Part shown: positions 1 through 45,981 of the stretch, one piece after another
Layout: the number at the start of each line of letters is the position of its first letter
How positions within the stretch are numbered: position 1 is the first letter of the stretch
Assembly (NCBI RefSeq): GCF_017875315.1
Contig: NZ_JAGGMM010000001.1
Span: 62,001-126,000, forward strand
Reading direction: 5' to 3'
Origin: Methanomicrobium sp. W14
GTDB taxonomy: Archaea > Halobacteriota > Methanomicrobia > Methanomicrobiales > Methanomicrobiaceae
Length of the DNA: 64,000 nucleotides
Program-made: the position numbers and the translations under genes
Notes under the pieces: model-generated
Databases searched by the model: none
What the model was told of the DNA's origin: nothing
What the model saw: the letters and a program-made list of their open reading frames with translations, nothing else

Positions 1-293
1 GGCGATGAGATTGAAGGATTCGGGACTATAAGAAAGTGCTTTTCTGGCTATAAAATTGGTCCTTTGTTTGCTGAAAATTTTGGTACTGCCGAAAAAATAT
101 TTCTTGGTCTTTGTGATTCGGTTGATTCCGAGCCGGTGTACCTTGACACTCCTGCGCCGAATGCAGGTGCGGTTTTGCTTGCGAAAAATACGGTATGAGT
201 GAGGTTTTCGTGACTGCGAGAATGTATACGAAAGAGGTCCCAAAGCTTCCACTAAAAAACATTTTTGGTGTCACTTCTTTTGAGATGGGATGA
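1..293 (+). pseudogene. GNAT acetyltransferase, C-terminal part, frameshifted
   Basis: This is the 3' end of a gene that starts before the window. Frame 1 reads the typical C-terminal half of GNAT proteins with a YitH-like second domain (GTIRKCFSGYKIGPLF at residues 8-23, then a DTPAPNAGAVLLAK segment). It then hits TGA at 196. One base of shift after the A run at 184-188 restores the family ending (KYGMSEVF, ARMYTKE, FGVTSFEMG) and stops at 291-293. Five A's are present where six would keep the frame. A sequencing error or a recent frameshift would look the same. The family call comes from recalled motifs; the substrate is unknown. Confidence 0.7.
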
Positions 294-414: not shown

Positions 415-1117
415 TCAGTCCCAGCTGTCTGATATCTGATAATTTACACTTATATTGGAATATCCGATATCTTCAAAAAATACGGATTTCACGGATGACG
501 ATTTCCATATTGGTTCTACAAACATTAACTCCTTGTTTCCCCCTCCGATGTATTGGAGATGAAATTCAACAGGTTCCTCAGAAGGATAAAAACTGCCGTT
601 AATATAAATACAGCTTTCATATGTTCCGGACTTTTTTTTAGAGAATTCCTCTAGAGTAAGACCTCCTGGAATATTAATAACAGGCATTAAAAGTCTTGGG
701 ATGAATTTTCTGTCAAATTCTGCTAATCTGATATTCAAATCTGATAATTCTGATTTGGATGTCTTTAAAACCATCATATTTCCACGTGATGTTTTGTCAA
801 CTGACAGGTTCCAGTCCGTATTTAGTCTGTAAACATCAGGTTCATCATTAACTCTTTTCAGTAAACCTTCAGAAAATACCGGTTCTCCGTCAACATAAAC
901 AGGAAGAGGAATCATGATTGTAGTTTCTCCTGTGGTTTTTACAGAATCAAGACCTGATATAGTTATGAAATAATTATTATTGCCCTCTGATCCAAAGACA
1001 AGCCATGCTGGGATATATGAAGCAAATAATAATAAAAAAAAAACCACAAATTACTGCAATGGTTACAAAAAACAAATTTTTAAGTCTGGATTTGCATTTT
1101 TTGGATTTCTCTGTCAT
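415..1117 (-). pseudogene. Membrane-anchored extracytoplasmic protein of unknown family, frame broken at a 10-base homopolymer
   Basis: An ATG at 1117 starts MTEKSKKCKSRLKN, a basic stretch followed by a hydrophobic segment (LFFVTIAVICGFFF), as expected of a signal anchor. The frame breaks at a run of ten A's (plus strand 1034-1043). With nine bases it would run into LLLFASYIPAWLVFG and continue for about 200 residues to the stop at 415-417. The outer part has no motif I recognise; it is rich in beta-type sequence (YFITISGLDSV, VYVDGEP, CIYINGSFYP). Without the frame fix, translation could start only at a GTG at 1047. The repeated element at 1324-1343 lies upstream. Function unknown. Confidence 0.5.
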
Positions 1118-1323: not shown

Positions 1324-1343
1324 TCTCACTATGAGATTGAACT
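1324..1343 (-). promoter_or_regulatory. Repeated element, copy A
   Basis: On the minus strand this reads AGTTCAA, four bases, ATAGTGAGA. It matches four other copies in 1.3-4.2 kb and has the same orientation and internal spacing. It lies about 205 bases upstream of the ATG at 1117. No strong TATA box is visible next to this copy. Confidence 0.5.
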
Positions 1344-1369
1344 ATCAGTACGTGATATGTTATTCCTGT

Positions 1370-1690
1370 TCAGATACCTTCCCCTGAAACTATGATCCTG
1401 AGAACTCCGGAGACTGCTGAACTGTCGCTAACCACAAAAAAAGATGAATTGTTTCTCTCAAACGGTTTAAAAAATGAATAATATCTGAATAAATATTCAC
1501 CTGCCTGTAGCTTTGTGCCTGTTTTTACGGTCAGATTTGATACATATGTCCCTTTTTTGGATACGGTAAATTCAGAATGAGATATATTTATTTTCAGGCC
1601 CATGGGAATCAGGGCCGTGATGGTCTCATTTTCTTTGTTATTTAAATCAATATATGGAGATAAGCAGTAATTTATTATCCCCGGCCCTTT
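1370..1690 (-). pseudogene. Fragment of a surface-type Ig-like domain protein
   Basis: The frame is open from just after a TAA near 1700 to the stop at 1370. No usable start precedes the internal ATG at 1603, which would give a 77-residue protein. The text (a TVSKKGTYVSNLTVKTG segment, then AGEYLFRYYSFF) resembles the beta-sandwich domains of archaeal surface proteins, where a PG-x-Y pattern precedes an AGEY strand. There is no membrane segment or sorting tail. It is probably a gene remnant, or a gene whose 5' part has been lost. A copy of the repeated element lies about 250 bases upstream on the same strand. The family match is a resemblance only. Confidence 0.35.
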
Positions 1691-2012
1691 TTAATTTCCT
1701 ATGGATTATCTCATAAATATGATGTTATAATACCTCTAAATGGGATTTTCGGACTATTTGACATTAAATAATATTGTCTGAAATTATGCAGATGTAAAAT
1801 ACAGAGGAAAAGAAGGGAAGAGGATTGGTTTAATTAAAAGGTTTTGTTTTTTTAACTGGTTGATTTATGCTCTTAATAAAAAGGATAGACGCCCCCCTTT
1901 TTCTCCCCCATTTTAGAATGGGATAGTTATGTATATACCGTTTCTCACTATGTACTTGAACTGTTATTTTTATTATTCCCCAATACAGTGTATTTTTTGG
2001 GAGAATCTGCAA
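1691..2012. other. Intergenic stretch with repeated element copy B
   Basis: No convincing gene. A 60-codon minus-strand frame (1830-2012) runs straight through the repeated element and its flanks, so I do not call it. A purine-rich run at 1801-1825 and AT-rich DNA fill the rest. Confidence 0.5.
1943..1965 (-). promoter_or_regulatory. Repeated element, copy B
   Basis: The minus strand reads AACAGTTCAA, GTAC, ATAGTGAGA. An A/T-rich TATA-like stretch (AAAAAATACAC, about 1990-2000) lies about 30 bases upstream on the same strand. The element would therefore fall near the transcription start of whatever runs toward the fragment at 1370-1690. Confidence 0.55.
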
Positions 2013-2685
2013 TCTTTTACAGTGAAATCCAATATTTTTGTGTTTTTTCAGTAAATTCAGGAGAATCTTCTAAATACAACTTTTTGCGCTTTTTTATTCA
2101 TACTATTGTTCAATAATTCCCTTATGAAGATGACGGAAATGTGCTTTTCGGGCTGTTAACTTTATATCCCCGCCCTTTGTGCAGGAACCAATGTATATAG
2201 AATTATGCAGATTAATCAGATCCGGTTTTTGCTGGCAGGATTTTTAACCTGAATATTCTGCAGGTTCCAATATTTTATTCAGGAGATATCATCGAAAAAT
2301 AGATGAGGAAACATCATACTCAACATTTTTTAAAGAAAAGAAGGAAATTGTAGCCATTAATTCCCTCTTTTAAAATTGTATTTCTGGATTGATTTTCGGG
2401 TTAGATAAAGGAGCCGGCTCCCGTTATCACCCTCCTATGAAAATAGGATACCAGTCTTTATATCTTCTATCACTATGTCGTTTAACTGTTCTCTGAAAAA
2501 ACCTTTATATGCAAATCCAAAATAGTTTTTTTGTTCAAAACCTGACTTTTTTGATAAATTTTGTAGAACTCAGTAACAGCCCGGCATATCCCTGTTATTA
2601 TATACCGTATCTGTTGTCTATGGAATTCCAGGTATAAAAACTAATTGTAAAAAATTTTGTCGGCAACAAGAATTTGTCCGGGTAT
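2013..2685. other. Gene-free AT-rich stretch
   Basis: No reading frame of convincing length on either strand. It holds the perfect 12-bp palindrome GGAGCCGGCTCC at 2410-2421 and copy C of the repeated element. On the minus strand a Shine-Dalgarno-like TAGGAGGGTGAT follows the element, but only nine codons open from the GTG inside it. This looks like a decayed gene start, or a leader whose gene has been lost. Confidence 0.5.
2468..2490 (-). promoter_or_regulatory. Repeated element, copy C, with TATA-like box
   Basis: The minus strand reads AACAGTTAAA, CGAC, ATAGTGATA. A good TATA-like box (TGCATATAAAGG, 2502-2513) precedes it, which would put the transcription start at the element itself. Confidence 0.55.
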
Positions 2686-3444
2686 TTAAGTGTAATCTCC
2701 CCTTTCAAATTCATATTTTTCTTTTATGTCACCGGGGATATTTTCAATAACAAATTTTTCAAAGCCTGACTTGATATAATAATGACCGGACTTGCCTGAT
2801 TTTCTTACTGACAAGACACCTGAACTTTCAAGTTTTTTAATATGCCAGGAGACAGCACTTTTGGATATATCAAGTTCGTCTTTAATCTCCGAGTTCCTGA
2901 TGCCGGGGTATTTTGCAATCATTGCCAGCATTTTGACCTGAACCGGGTTGTGGCAGATGCTGATAATTTTTCTCTGTTTTCCTGAGAATGTGTTGTGATT
3001 TGGAAAGACCCTTTTGGAGCGGTCTGTACTCTCCAATATTATGTGGTTGTTTCTTTCAAGGCATATGAGGTGGTACCTCAGAGTCTCCCTGTTCAGATTC
3101 ATTTCACCGGAAAGCTCTTCAATGCACTTCCCGGGATTTTCCGCGATATATTCAAGGATTTTTCTTCTTTTTGTGTTTTCAAGTGCATATCTTATTTTGC
3201 CGGTTAGAACAGGAAGAAATTTGATTGCCGCAGCAGTTCCAATAATTAACGAAGAAATCCATGAAATCTGAATCCATAATGGCAGATCAGAAAATGTATT
3301 TATTTGATCTCCACCGTGGTTATATTCAAAATTATCTTTTTGAGAATTTTCTCCAAAATTAACGCTTAAACTACAGAGACCTGCATGTACAAATAGTGCA
3401 AATGTTAGAAAAATGAAAAAGAATATTTTTAGCTTAATCTTCAT
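2686..3444 (-). CDS. Membrane-anchored transcription regulator with two winged-helix domains
   Basis: The 252-residue protein starts with a hydrophobic signal or anchor segment (residues 1-25) and has a second membrane segment near residues 57-80 (WIQISWISSLIIGTAAAI). The rest is cytoplasmic and holds two winged-helix units: residues about 92-145 (RRKILEYIAENPGKCIEEL, then NRETLRYHL) and 165-230 (LAMIAKYPGIRNSEI, then SKSAVSWHIKKLESSGVL). The second has the classic recognition-helix and wing pattern of ArsR/MarR-like archaeal regulators. The layout, a sensor loop outside and DNA-binding domains inside, is known for membrane-bound archaeal regulators. It starts 24 bases after the small secreted protein at 3469-3936, so the two are probably co-transcribed. 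It is the obvious candidate to bind the repeated element nearby; that is inference. Confidence 0.8.
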   Translation of the reverse strand: MKIKLKIFFFIFLTFALFVHAGLCSLSVNFGENSQKDNFEYNHGGDQINTFSDLPLWIQISWISSLIIGTAAAIKFLPVLTGKIRYALENTKRRKILEYIAENPGKCIEELSGEMNLNRETLRYHLICLERNNHIILESTDRSKRVFPNHNTFSGKQRKIISICHNPVQVKMLAMIAKYPGIRNSEIKDELDISKSAVSWHIKKLESSGVLSVRKSGKSGHYYIKSGFEKFVIENIPGDIKEKYEFERGDYT

Positions 3445-3468
3445 GATCTCTAATTTCTTATAAGATCA

Positions 3469-3936
3469 TTATATTGAATAACTTTCTGTTCCTGATACGC
3501 TATCTCCATAGACTTCATAGTACCAAGTCCCTTCGGGAATACCATCTGGGTCGCTGATTGTAAGTTGAATCTTCCCATTATGAGAACCGTCAGAATCATC
3601 GTAATAATATCCGAATGTATGGCCATCAGGAGCATATACTTTTAGTCTCAGAGAATTCGATGAATCCTGCCATACCAAACTGATATAGATGCTTGTATAA
3701 TGCCCGGAGACATATGAAGAAGGCCATTGTGTTTCTCCCTGTTCGATTGTAGATTGAACTGTATCTATGTGGATGTCACCAAGAGAGCCGGCACTGCTTA
3801 GCGACTGTGCCGGGTTTGCAAATGTTACCGTATATCCGTCGTTTGAGGTCTGTGCACCTGCCGCAGAAACGTCTGCTGCTGCAGCAAATGATACAAGCAT
3901 AGCTGTAGCTATAAGCATAATCAACAATTTCTTCAT
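3469..3936 (-). CDS. Small secreted protein of unknown function
   Basis: The 155-residue protein has a clear Sec signal peptide (basic start, hydrophobic run to about residue 20, AAA-type cleavage site). The exported domain is beta-rich and acidic. Its end (LRLKVYAPDGHTFGYYYDD, then SDPDGIPEGTWYYEVYG) resembles pre-peptidase C-terminal-like or proprotein-convertase P-like domains, in which a D-x-D-G-x-P-x-G-x-W pattern is common. No catalytic motif is visible. It is the first gene after the best-placed copy of the repeated element (4002-4024) and a TATA-like box near 4056-4068. The membrane-anchored regulator follows directly. The pair may be a secreted sensor or ligand with its regulator, but nothing in the sequence proves that. 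Confidence 0.7.
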   Translation of the reverse strand: MKKLLIMLIATAMLVSFAAAADVSAAGAQTSNDGYTVTFANPAQSLSSAGSLGDIHIDTVQSTIEQGETQWPSSYVSGHYTSIYISLVWQDSSNSLRLKVYAPDGHTFGYYYDDSDGSHNGKIQLTISDPDGIPEGTWYYEVYGDSVSGTESYSI

Positions 3937-4001
3937 AATTTCACCGAAACCCGTTTTACCGGGCTCTGAATGAAATTATCAATCAAGTCGTTAAAATATT
4001 C

Positions 4002-4024
4002 TCTCACTATGGAGTTGAACTGTT
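4002..4024 (-). promoter_or_regulatory. Repeated element, copy D
   Basis: The minus strand reads AACAGTTCAA, CTCC, ATAGTGAGA. It lies 65 bases upstream of the start codon at 3936 and about 35-40 bases downstream of the TATA-like box at 4056-4068, so at or just after the expected transcription start. Confidence 0.6.
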
Positions 4025-4108
4025 TCTCATATGTTCAATCTGATAAAGAATAACTTTATATATAAAATGGCGATCACGCACGATACAAAAAAACATGTAA
4101 TTAATATA

Positions 4109-4128
4109 TCTCACTATATCGTTTAACA
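4109..4128 (-). promoter_or_regulatory. Repeated element, copy E
   Basis: The minus strand reads TGTTAAA, CGAT, ATAGTGAGA, the least conserved copy at its 5' end. A TATATA stretch lies about 32 bases upstream. With copy D it forms a pair about 107 bases apart in front of the same gene. Confidence 0.5.
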
Positions 4129-4246: not shown

Positions 4247-5443
4247 TTAGAAGTCAGTCATGACCCTGAACTGGTCAATCTCTTCAGTGTTCAATTCTTC
4301 AAGGAACTGTTCCGCTGCATTTTTGATGTTTTTGCTTGCAGTGATTGCACGTCCTACGACGACGATGTCGGCACCCGATTTAAGAGCTGTCTTGACGACA
4401 TGCTGCCTCACGCCACCGGCTGTTGCTACAAGGAGCTTTCCGCCTGCAGCCTTTTTGATGGCTGGGATGTTTCCCCAGTTGTATTCCGTCGACTCGTTGT
4501 CTATTGCACGGTGCATCTCGACGATTGACGGAACTGCATCTCTCTCTGCAAGCTCTTTTATGAGTTTGACCGGGTCTTCTACATTTAGCATATCGATTAC
4601 TGAGTAAATACCAGTCTTTTTAGTCTCTTTTATGAACTTCTCGATTGTCGATACAGGTGCAAGACCTGATACAACGACTGCATCTGCTGATGCGTTTGCA
4701 GCCATTCTCGCTTCGAGGTTTCCTGTGTCAAGTGTCTTTAAGTCAGCGATGATGAATGAATCAGGTCTTATATTCCTGATGCTCCCTATGACGGAAAGCC
4801 CAAACTGTTTGATTAAAGGAGTTCCGGCCTCGATTAATACGTGGTCGTTCTTTGGAACAGCATTTAAGACCTTTTCCACTGTGCCCATGTCGACAAGGTC
4901 CATGGCGACCTGGAGGTATGGCGGGTCCCAGAGTCTCTGTACCTTAAAGCCCATAACAGCGTGCCCTGCGCGGTCTTTTTCCTTAATCAGTGTCTTCTTG
5001 TCAGGGAATTTGTCAAAAGCACGGTTTATTGCAAGTTTTGTTGAACCGTAGTTGTAGCGGTATATACGGTTGTAGTCCTTTGCGTCAGGGTGCAGGTATG
5101 CACTTGCAAGGATAACCATGTCTTCAGGGTCGCATTCCCTGTTATCGAAGACGCCTTCTTCGTAGCAGTCTGCAACGGCTTTTGCAACCGCGGCCTGTAC
5201 AGCGCCGAACATTGCATTTACCTGTGATACGTGTTTGAGTGTAACTTTCGGTATTATAAGAGTTGCAGGTTTTGTCAGAAGGTTCGGCCTTACCACAGCC
5301 AGAAGAGGAGTGTGTCCTGCTGAAAGCTGGGACGCCGCGTTTGCGAACGCCATTCCGACGGGGCCTGTTTTATCACCAATTAAAAGATCTATATGCGCAA
5401 GCTCTGCGCCTTCACCTTCGAGTGCTTCACCAATTAAATACAT
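4247..5443 (-). CDS. fae-hps: Bifunctional formaldehyde-activating enzyme / 3-hexulose-6-phosphate synthase
   Basis: The N-terminal domain (residues 1-160) is formaldehyde-activating enzyme; the start MYLIGEALEGEG and the active-site histidine stretch LAHIDLLIGDK are typical. The C-terminal domain (about 165-398) is 3-hexulose-6-phosphate synthase, a TIM barrel of the OMP-decarboxylase group (ADLKTLDTGNLEA carries the D-x-K-x-x-D motif; EMHRAID follows). In methanogens the fusion works in the reverse ribulose monophosphate route: it makes ribulose 5-phosphate for pentose and PRPP synthesis, and the released formaldehyde condenses with tetrahydromethanopterin. I chose the ATG at 5443 because homologues begin there; an in-frame start exists at 5503 but adds no family sequence. 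It stands alone, with no rpiA or other pentose gene next to it. Confidence 0.93.
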   Translation of the reverse strand: MYLIGEALEGEGAELAHIDLLIGDKTGPVGMAFANAASQLSAGHTPLLAVVRPNLLTKPATLIIPKVTLKHVSQVNAMFGAVQAAVAKAVADCYEEGVFDNRECDPEDMVILASAYLHPDAKDYNRIYRYNYGSTKLAINRAFDKFPDKKTLIKEKDRAGHAVMGFKVQRLWDPPYLQVAMDLVDMGTVEKVLNAVPKNDHVLIEAGTPLIKQFGLSVIGSIRNIRPDSFIIADLKTLDTGNLEARMAANASADAVVVSGLAPVSTIEKFIKETKKTGIYSVIDMLNVEDPVKLIKELAERDAVPSIVEMHRAIDNESTEYNWGNIPAIKKAAGGKLLVATAGGVRQHVVKTALKSGADIVVVGRAITASKNIKNAAEQFLEELNTEEIDQFRVMTDF

Positions 5444-5738
5444 ATCAGGTTTCCTACCTGTCTTAATTATGGGTTTTAATTGTAGAAATAGGTAGGGTAT
5501 CACAGTTAGCCGTTTAAAATTTGAACAGTCCTGAAAGTCCGGATTAAAGTGGATTTGAATGAATTAAGGCGAGAAGTGCGGAATACCAGTCTAAGCCAAA
5601 ATATTTTCTGTCTTTTGGGAAAAAAGTTCAATTCTGACCGAAGCAGCGGCTTCCGTTCTTTTGAATACCTGGTTAAGCCCCAAAAAAAGTCTGCCTGCGC
5701 AATTAAGGGTTACGGCCGGGCAGTTTCTGATTTTAAAA

Positions 5739-5939
5739 TGGGGTCGGTGAGATTTGAACTCACGATCGACGGGTCTCTCCGAACATGCGTTTTTCTTATA
5801 AGCGCTTTCATCAGGAGATGCAGATTTTGCATCAGCGCTCCAACGGATCATCACAGGATTTCTCCTCAGAAAGACCCATTGTTCATCATACGCAAAGACC
5901 GCTGGAGCCCGTCGCCATGCCGGACTAGGCCACGACCCC
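5739..5939 (-). tRNA. tRNA-Trp (CCA) with a 127-base intron
   Basis: Exon 1 is 5902-5939 (38 bases) and exon 2 is 5739-5774 (36 bases). The acceptor stem pairs GGGGTCG with CGACCCC, with discriminator A at 5739. The anticodon stem pairs ACGGG with CCCGT around the loop CTCCAGA, giving anticodon CCA. The T arm reads GTGAG TTCAAAT CTCAC. CCA is not encoded. The intron (5775-5901) sits after position 37, the usual archaeal place. Its exact ends rest on restoring a seven-base anticodon loop. Confidence 0.92.
5775..5901 (-). ncRNA. Box C/D guide RNA within the tRNA-Trp intron
   Basis: Reading the minus strand, box C (ATGATGA) is at 5883-5889, D' (CTGA) at 5866-5869, C' (GTGATGA) at 5848-5854 and D (CTGA) at 5832-5835. 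The guide before box D (TTGGAGCG) pairs with the anticodon loop. The fifth base upstream of box D (G5840) faces C34, which is the known rule for directing 2'-O-methylation. The guide before D' (GGGTCTTT) pairs with the AGACCC stretch at the intron/exon 2 junction and points to position 38 or 39. In haloarchaea the same intron guides methylation of C34 and U39. Confidence 0.85.
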
Positions 5940-6158: not shown

Positions 6159-7865
6159 ATGGATATGGCTGAGATAAGCTACGCGAGCGGTTTGTCCGAC
6201 GTACCCCTGATTGGAAAGACAATCGGGGAGATGCTTGAAGAAATCGCCAAAAAATACCCTGATACTGAGGCTCTGGTTGCAGTAGACCAGAACATAAGGT
6301 GGACGTACAGCGAATTCCTTGAGAAAGTGGATGAGCTTGCACTAAGCCTTATGGCCCTCGGAGTCAACAAAGGTGACCGCGTAGGTATCTGGGCGCTGAA
6401 CTACGCGGAATGGGTAGTCGTTCAGTTTGCAACCGCAAAGTGCGGTGCGATAATGGTGAATATAAACCCTTCATACAGGACTTTTGAACTTGAGTACGCA
6501 CTGAAGCAGTCCGAAGTCCATACTCTGATTCTTCAGGGCAGGTTCAAAAATTCCGATTACGTCGGGATGTTTTACGAATCCTGTCCCGAGGCGATAGAGT
6601 CCCGTCCCGGAAAAATTTCGACTGAAAAGTTTCCGTTCCTCAGAAATGTCGTTTTTATGGGCAATATCCCTTATAACGGCATGTTTACCTGGAACGAATT
6701 CCTTGAAAAAGGGAAAAATATCAGCCGGGATGAATTAAAGGAAAGAGAAGATACTTTGTCGTTTGATGACCCGGTAAACATCCAGTATACGTCCGGGACG
6801 ACCGGTTATCCCAAAGGAGTTGTACTTACTCATCACAGTGTCATGAACAACGGCTACACGATAGGTTCCGGGATGGGGTTCACCGAAAAAGACAGGCTGT
6901 GCATACCGGTTCCTTTCTACCACTGTTTTGGTATGGTCCTTTCCAATATGGCAAGCGTTACTCACGGCGCGACAATGGTTATCCCGTCTCCGGCATTTGA
7001 TGCAGAGGCGGTTTTGAGGACTATTGACCGGGAAAAATGCACTGCCGTCCATGGTGTTCCGACAATGTTTATAGCGGAGCTGAAGCATCCCAATTTCAAT
7101 AAATACAAATACGACACACTCAGGACAGGAATTATGGCAGGCTCTCCGTGTCCTATCGAGTACATGAAGGCCGTAAATGAAAAGATGAACATGAGGGACA
7201 TTGTTATAGTCTACGGTCAGACAGAGACATCGCCTGGTGTTACTATGACGACAACCGACGACCCGCTTGAAAGAAGGGTCACAACGGTCGGCAAGACGTT
7301 TCCTCATGTTGAGCTTAAAATAATCGACCCGGTAACGCAGAGGATTGTGCCCCGCGGAGAGCCAGGGGAAATATGTGCACGCGGGTATGTCGTAATGAAA
7401 TGCTATTACAACAACCCGAGCGCCACCCGCCAGACAATTGATGCCGACAGGTGGAACCATACCGGAGACCTTGGTATTATGGACGAAGAAGGATACGTGA
7501 AGATAGTCGGCAGGTTAAAGGAGATGGTGATTCGCGGGGGCGAGAACATCTATCCGCGTGAAATAGAGGAATTCCTCTATACAAACCGCAAGATTGAGGA
7601 CGCGTATGTTATTGGTGTGCCTGACGAGAAATACGGTGAGGAGCTTATGGTATGGGTAAGGCTTCGTGACGGGTGCACAATGACGGAAGAGGAGCTTAAA
7701 GAGTTCTGCAACGGCAGAATTGCAAGGTTCAAGATCCCGAGGTATGTAAAGTTCGTGAACAGTTTCCCGATGAATGTGTCCGGAAAGATAAAAAAGCATG
7801 AAATGCAGAGCATTTCGATAAAAGAACTTGGCCTTGAGAAGGTTTCAAATATTGAAACAGCCTGA
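6159..7865 (+). CDS. AMP-forming acyl-CoA synthetase (fatty-acid or short/medium-chain acyl-CoA ligase)
   Basis: The 568-residue protein is a full-length member of the adenylate-forming (ANL) superfamily. The phosphate-binding loop YTSGTTGYPKG is near residue 209, YGQTE near 353, HTGDLG near 434, the hinge motif GRLKEMVIRGGENIYPREIE near 451, and the catalytic lysine in NVSGKIKKHE near 540. It activates a carboxylic acid with ATP to the acyl-adenylate and then the CoA thioester. Overall it resembles FadD/AcsM-type enzymes rather than acetyl-CoA synthetase (Acs is about 650 residues). The true substrate cannot be read from the sequence. Translation could begin at codon 1 or codon 3. It is transcribed alone; the next gene is convergent. 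Methanogens use such enzymes to assimilate external organic acids; that role is inferred. Confidence 0.88.
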   Translation: MDMAEISYASGLSDVPLIGKTIGEMLEEIAKKYPDTEALVAVDQNIRWTYSEFLEKVDELALSLMALGVNKGDRVGIWALNYAEWVVVQFATAKCGAIMVNINPSYRTFELEYALKQSEVHTLILQGRFKNSDYVGMFYESCPEAIESRPGKISTEKFPFLRNVVFMGNIPYNGMFTWNEFLEKGKNISRDELKEREDTLSFDDPVNIQYTSGTTGYPKGVVLTHHSVMNNGYTIGSGMGFTEKDRLCIPVPFYHCFGMVLSNMASVTHGATMVIPSPAFDAEAVLRTIDREKCTAVHGVPTMFIAELKHPNFNKYKYDTLRTGIMAGSPCPIEYMKAVNEKMNMRDIVIVYGQTETSPGVTMTTTDDPLERRVTTVGKTFPHVELKIIDPVTQRIVPRGEPGEICARGYVVMKCYYNNPSATRQTIDADRWNHTGDLGIMDEEGYVKIVGRLKEMVIRGGENIYPREIEEFLYTNRKIEDAYVIGVPDEKYGEELMVWVRLRDGCTMTEEELKEFCNGRIARFKIPRYVKFVNSFPMNVSGKIKKHEMQSISIKELGLEKVSNIETA

Positions 7866-45579: not shown

Positions 45580-45981
45580 TTTCAGACCCTTGTTTTACTG
45601 GATGTACCACTTCAAGTCCTCCGGTGGATCAAAGGCCCGCCCCGGCACCCGAGTTTCAATCCTTGTTTTATTGGATGTACCACTTCAAGCACTAGAGCAA
45701 GAGCACTTCAAAATATTCAGAGATTGTTTCAATCCTTGTTTTATTGGATGTACCACTTCAAGGTGCGGTGTCCTCCGGGTAACTTCGGCCGCTCTGAGTT
45801 TCAATCCTTGTTTTATTGGATGTACCACTTCAAGTCTTATACCTGACAGTATGCTGCTTCCTACCGCGTAGTTTCAATCCTTGTTTTATTGGATGTACCA
45901 CTTCAAGAAGAAATAAATCAATTTTTACAAACCATACATATGATGTTTCAATCCTTGTTTTATTGGATGTACCACTTCAAG
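45580..45981 (-). CRISPR. CRISPR array, six repeats and five spacers
   Basis: Five intact 37-bp repeats at 45653-45689, 45726-45762, 45798-45834, 45871-45907 and 45945-45981 are identical (plus strand begins GTTTCAATCCTTG and ends CCACTTCAAG). A sixth copy (45580-45616) is degenerate over its first ten bases. Spacers are 36, 36, 35, 36 and 37 bases. On the minus strand the repeat ends in ATTGAAAC, the usual 8-base type I-B crRNA handle, and the degenerate copy lies at the left, so transcription runs leftward with the leader on the right. No cas gene is in the window. Confidence 0.97.

Follow-up and report, generated by a model that had tools for sequence, protein, structure and literature searches.

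The 64,000-nucleotide stretch of Methanomicrobium sp. W14 considered here (contig NZ_JAGGMM010000001.1, positions 62,001 to 126,000; hereafter the window, in whose coordinates positions are given unless a contig or locus is named) carries five copies of a short sequence element, TCACTATNNNNTTKAAC, in a cluster that encloses the gene of a predicted membrane-anchored double winged-helix regulator. An initial annotation of this DNA had described the five copies correctly: all are exact 17-mers of the form GTTMAA-N4-ATAGTGA, on the minus strand, in one orientation and with a 4-base spacer, and in 100 dinucleotide shuffles of the window the pattern was never met (mean 0.00, maximum 0). Its statement that the window holds no further copy also stands, as no sixth exact match was found in the 64 kb and a relaxed match at 7514 lies inside a coding sequence. 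The copies are listed below with their TATA boxes, which occupy columns 25–30 when the first G of the 17-mer is column 1, and with the genes and promoter features of the regulator's operon.

1326–1342, minus strand: element copy a, GTTCAATCTCATAGTGA; TATA box at 1313–1318; upstream of a membrane partner gene
1945–1961, minus strand: element copy b, GTTCAAGTACATAGTGA; TATA box at 1932–1937, then a decayed cassette leader
2470–2486, minus strand: element copy c, GTTAAACGACATAGTGA; TATA box at 2457–2462, then a leader remnant and no open reading frame (ORF)
2686–3444, minus strand: regulator, 252 residues; N-terminal hydrophobic helix, disordered segment, long hydrophobic helix (56–102) and two winged helix-turn-helix domains
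3469–3936, minus strand: secreted protein, 155 residues; signal peptide and jelly-roll β-sandwich
4004–4020, minus strand: element copy d, GTTCAACTCCATAGTGA; weak TATA box at 3991–3996; upstream of the secreted-protein/regulator operon
4032–4049, plus strand: partial inverted element copy, TGTTCAATCTGATAAAGA, with three mismatches, between copies d and e, covering the start predicted for the promoter with the strong TATA box
4056–4067, minus strand: strong TATA box lying between copies d and e, probably that of the secreted-protein/regulator operon
4111–4127, minus strand: element copy e, GTTAAACGATATAGTGA; TATA box at 4098–4103; 107 bp from copy d

The architecture of the regulator, as seen in its structural model (mean pLDDT, the model's confidence score, 85.5), combines hydrophobic helices predicted from sequence and model at residues 2–24 and within 56–102, a disordered stretch some 25 residues long, and two winged helix-turn-helix domains at residues 108–148 and 155–224 that match the Pfam families HTH_24, HTH_5 and HTH_HVO_0163_N. 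By fold comparison these are ArsR-like wing domains resembling SmtB and NolR. The model of the co-encoded secreted protein (mean pLDDT 79) has a fold like that of the C-terminal β domains of the subtilases Tk-SP and KP-43, a match by fold alone, with no sequence relatives found in the PDB.

Elsewhere in the 2.54-Mb genome, only three more exact copies were found (C2:50471, C2:55239 and C2:345951), giving eight in all. Ten one-mismatch matches compare with eight for a reversed-pattern control; one of them, an A-to-G variant at C1:303504 (CATGGTGA), leads a secreted-protein gene and is counted as a ninth copy, and the remaining nine do not stand out from the control. Related genomes carry up to 13–16 dispersed copies each. 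The earlier proposal of a local regulon with its own operator thus holds for the operator-like site but is too narrow as to locality: four copies lie elsewhere in this genome, and those of the relatives are scattered.

The distribution of the element across genomes follows that of the regulator closely. Among 199 genomes of the order, arrays of at least five exact copies are confined to the five that have a close regulator ortholog (E ≤ 1e-120), with 0–2 copies in all others. Besides the window's own genome these are G006, G007, G013 and G016, in which the orthologs are 50–68% identical, element copies surround the regulator and, as in the window, a pair of copies 107–108 bp apart precedes the secreted-protein/regulator operon. 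Two near relatives are instructive: G004, from the window's genus, has the regulator reduced to a fragment and retains two exact copies, and G011, from the genus of G016, has no ortholog and a single copy. The naive probability of this co-occurrence, 1/C(199,5) = 4e-10, ignores relatedness; all five genomes come from a single family and do not count as independent cases. With arrays of the element found only where the regulator has an ortholog, the tie between the two drawn in the initial annotation is borne out, and the element is very probably the operator of the membrane-anchored regulator at 2686–3444.

Where the element sits in its promoters is strikingly constant. Alignment of 60 sites from seven genomes gives the consensus A(C/T)(A/T)-GTTCAAGnnCATRGTGA-RAR (column 1 being the G of GTTCAA). 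In the 42 non-redundant promoters, defined by a mutual difference above 20%, the TATA box is fixed at columns 25–30, 7 bp downstream of the element, with 93–100% A/T at these columns, and an initiator-like ATTTTCAA follows at columns 43–51; AT-rich stretches lie upstream of some copies. If transcription starts near column 51, the element would lie at about −50 to −34, directly upstream of, and slightly into, the TFB-recognition element (BRE), whose columns 18–20 the conserved sequence reaches. This reverses the placement first given to the element, at or just after the transcription start with a TATA-like box 15–45 bases upstream of it, an arrangement that is not general. Because the conserved TATA box and initiator are downstream of the element, it would not form part of the transcript of that promoter, and a role as a start-site or 5′ untranslated region (5′-UTR) element was rejected on the position of the TATA box. 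The strong TATA box at 4056–4067, upstream of copy d, would accord with action of the element in the 5′ UTR of the transcript, the reading implied by the earlier placement, but the order of elements in the other promoters makes such a role the least probable of the alternatives considered here.

The pairing of a secreted jelly-roll protein with a membrane regulator extends well beyond the window, recurring in Methanomicrobiales, Methanolobus, Methanoperedens and Archaeoglobi. Upstream of these paralogous modules no direct repeats about 107 bp apart were found; instead, inverted pairs of another site are present, CAGTTSGAYGATNTGGACA in methanogens and TTCTCAARAYATGGTCAGAA in Archaeoglobi. In 28 methanogen and 11 Archaeoglobi arms of these sites the TATA box again falls at columns 25–30, in the same register as in the window. 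Of 15 loci scored by inspection, 14 have a divergent gene whose product is predicted to be secreted. A second module of this kind lies in the window's genome at C1:288003–291700, where two of its three sites of the alternative type fall in the interval separating the divergent genes and the third precedes a second cassette. Over the wider locus (L150 2003–6832, or G000:C1:288003–292832) this module is seen to be complete and divergent, and to have an operator type of its own together with two cassettes for secreted proteins. That two paralogous regulators each lie beside their own site type, and that both types hold one and the same place in the promoter, argues strongly if indirectly that such regulators would read these sites. 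What had seemed peculiar to the window locus is instead one specificity of a widespread archaeal module.

These comparisons also bear on whether the element might belong to promoters in general and be recognized by a variant TFB or a different basal factor. It does adjoin the BRE and TATA box, as such an element should, but it occurs in just 8–16 copies per genome, is confined to secreted or membrane targets, is absent from relatives without the regulator, and is replaced by a different sequence at the same position beside the paralogous regulator of the same genome. As a general feature of promoters it was rejected on its distribution in the 199 genomes, and recognition by a basal factor is accordingly very improbable.

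Archaeal activators usually bind just upstream of the BRE; binding over the promoter or downstream of it is typical of repressors (PMC5512572, PMC5937170). Because the spacing between element and TATA box is fixed, activation is favoured, and on this ground the regulator is rather more probably an activator. A repressor operator, at which the regulator would block TFB or TBP at the adjacent BRE and TATA box and let go on a signal, is unlikely, although several features would suit it: the conserved element runs into the BRE, the wing domains resemble those of the repressors SmtB and NolR, and the partial inverted copy over the operon's likely start fits autorepression. The constant distance and helical phase to the TATA box in three operator classes fit contact with the basal machinery, and sites upstream of the BRE are usual for activators, with repressors accepting more positions. 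Whatever its sign, autoregulation of the operon is suggested by the partial inverted copy and strong TATA box between copies d and e; similar inverted copies are also present in G013 and G016.

The genes behind the element are of a recognizable kind. A hydrophobic N terminus is found in 48 of 50 distinct ORFs behind sites; among the window's other ORFs the proportion is 12 of 43 (Fisher p = 1e-12). Many of the ORFs behind sites share a signal peptide of about 30 residues, like MKLKKGMRALSLLLVMALxGAMFVPVVSA, joined to wholly different mature parts. Where the mature domain could be recognized, it is an M12 reprolysin-like metalloprotease, a C39-like peptidase or DUF6345 (in one case with a weak CHAT match); most of the others match no Pfam family. 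A second gene, encoding a membrane protein or lipoprotein, usually follows that of the secreted protein. Some membrane proteins of the regulon are homologous to the N-terminal prodomains of its M12-type proteases (E values to 6e-35): as orphans directly under the element, one in L020, in the window's genome, and one in L049, and, within the same operon-like run, two more in L048. All four are membrane-anchored and lack the catalytic domain:

L020 4179–4955: membrane-anchored prodomain homolog
L048 3479–4096: membrane-anchored prodomain homolog
L048 5858–6544: membrane-anchored prodomain homolog
L049 13161–13835: membrane-anchored prodomain homolog

A prodomain held in the membrane could inhibit its protease, and these proteins are candidate immunity proteins.

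The cassettes for secreted proteins have a further part in common, a leader of about 195 nt that ends CCGGCAU...GAUUAAGGUUUGCAUGCCGGU near the start codon and may act in translation control or as a site of recombination. It is seen at L044 6607–6875, L045 9020–9390, L047 15592–15864 and elsewhere, with an almost invariant 3′ part, CCGGCAT...GATTAAGGTTTGCATGCCGGT. As a known RNA it was set aside, there being no Rfam match at E ≤ 5 in L044, L045 or L047. Covariation among nine leader sequences gave 28 pairs, seven of them with double changes, but a wider alignment of 19 sequences supported only one short sequence-conserved stem without covariation.

The recurrence of promoter, leader and signal peptide as one block in G006, G007, G013 and G016 raises another possibility, that the element is a passenger of a mobile or recombining cassette repeat with no regulatory role. 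The G016 array (L047 2886–18790) contains transposase-like ORFs, a duplicated fragment of the fused Fae-Hps gene and three regulator copies, two of them broken, and probably undergoes active cassette turnover; its transposase-like and duplicated pieces would be expected of such a repeat. The initial annotation had held that five copies belonging to a longer dispersed repeat would speak against its regulon, and for those at 1326, 1945 and 2470 this is the case, as they stand in promoter–leader units repeated in relatives. It is not so for promoters without the leader (for example those of L020, L048, L123 and the regulator operon), in which the element keeps the same spacing to the TATA box. 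With the same promoter position kept in diverged paralogous modules as well, a mere passenger is slightly less probable even than a site for a basal factor.

At the window's own locus, the cassette array has decayed. In G006 the same flanking genes enclose an array of about 10 kb, and the space for it here is about 2.4 kb:

1–290, plus strand: left conserved flank, the end of a protein 71–83% identical to the ORF bordering the G006 array; acetyltransferase-like by inspection
415–1117, minus strand: membrane-anchored partner-type protein behind copy a, 79–80% identical to the intact L049:5186–5887
1370–1603, minus strand: truncated relic ORF behind copy b
4247–5503, minus strand: right conserved flank, fused Fae-Hps

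The reading frame of the partner-type protein at 415–1117 is broken where ten A follow one another (plus strand, 1034–1043), and the protein's relative in G004 is intact; decay, a sequencing error and a switchable run cannot be told apart as the cause. At least two of the five window promoters (1945 and 2470) now precede relics, not intact genes. Beyond the flank, an Rfam match to the C/D-box RNA sR3 (5830–5893, minus strand) is probably part of a pre-tRNA with the C/D-box RNA in its intron: relatives have a split tRNA match, about 190 nt long, that covers this RNA (L045 5757–5948, L047 1171–1357), and ARAGORN reported no tRNA at 5830–5893 itself. Further away, five copies of a CRISPR repeat of the CRISPR-DR7 type lie at 45653–45981 (minus strand).

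Taken as a whole, an explanation that joins the operator, the membrane regulator, a dispersed secretion regulon and probable activation is likely. The regulon would comprise the regulator's own operon, the variable secreted cassettes, several of them protease-like, and their membrane-anchored partners. The regulator would remain in the membrane, where its short extracytoplasmic segment would receive an outside cue, the secreted jelly-roll protein perhaps serving as a ligand or a sensor, while its cytoplasmic winged helices bind the element; once bound, it would help TBP or TFB onto the promoter and so raise transcription. The products would be directed at competing microbes, from which the producer differs in being shielded by the membrane partners. 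Antagonism between microbes is suggested because variable, secreted, protease-like proteins are found with membrane partners in arrays that turn over between relatives, and this use of the products is put forward tentatively.

Several observations weigh against this explanation or parts of it. The overlap of element and BRE would fit a repressor site equally well; many cassettes are copies of one promoter–leader block, so that not all are independent witnesses to the spacing; toxicity of the cassette products is a guess, most of their mature domains being without a Pfam match; and the relics that make up most of the window's targets suggest that the system is decaying here.

Parts of such a system have precedents. 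Transmembrane transcription regulators (TTRs; PMC10269533), which include ArnR and ArnR1 of Sulfolobus (PMC6396743), are likewise one-component proteins with a DNA-binding domain and a membrane anchor, and ArnR activates surface-structure genes through two promoter boxes (PMC6396743). The regulator described here has the DNA-binding domain and at least one transmembrane region, the latter predicted, that define the group, and would regulate from the membrane. Its plan is different, however: ArnR has one N-terminal helix-turn-helix, a HAMP-like domain and C-terminal membrane helices, whereas here N-terminal hydrophobic helices precede two winged helices, a secreted jelly-roll protein is encoded alongside the regulator, and variable secreted cassettes make up the targets. 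EarA and TFB-RF1 (PMC5512572, PMC5937170) likewise use a site immediately upstream of the BRE and TATA box, the position seen here in 42 promoters and 39 paralog arms, and TFB-RF1 also acts on its own operon; those proteins are soluble, their site sequences are unrelated or different, and they have other targets.

The targets, too, recall known systems. Archaeal polymorphic toxins and hypervariable modules such as VARTIG (PMC8416519) also involve variable secreted proteins with adjacent membrane proteins proposed as partners, in arrays that differ between close relatives. In contrast, no large multidomain toxin with a common delivery region was seen here, the common parts being promoter, leader and the signal peptide of about 30 residues, and there is a dedicated membrane regulator with its operator. 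The secreted-protein islands of archaeal "dark matter" (PMC4158269) similarly hold lineage-specific secreted proteases (C39, PepSY/M4) and membrane proteins for which a part in conflict has been suggested, but the portions of that report considered describe no regulator–operator system. Membrane-bound one-component regulators and variable secreted islands are thus already known in archaea (PMC10269533, PMC6396743, PMC8416519, PMC4158269), and a secretion regulon with this operator is apparently undescribed. No earlier account of the module, operator or regulon was found in the literature searched, to which the most relevant paper, Makarova et al. 2019, did not belong; this is weak evidence of novelty.

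It is possible, if speculative, that the whole represents an undescribed signalling and weapon system, in which the jelly-roll protein and membrane regulator control fast-changing, secreted, protease-like effectors and membrane-anchored inhibitors through an operator at a fixed position before the TATA box. Its module would be conserved from Archaeoglobi to Methanosarcinales and Methanomicrobiales, and in the window's lineage one copy would have turned into the master regulator of cassettes dispersed over the genome. An operator is known for few regulators of archaea, and very little is known of the way in which archaea deploy secreted weapons. As sequence reveals the operator, its candidate regulator, the targets and, in the same genome, a second specificity, a membrane-to-promoter switch in methanogens becomes directly testable, and the element may serve as a DNA signature for candidate conflict proteins that sequence families miss.

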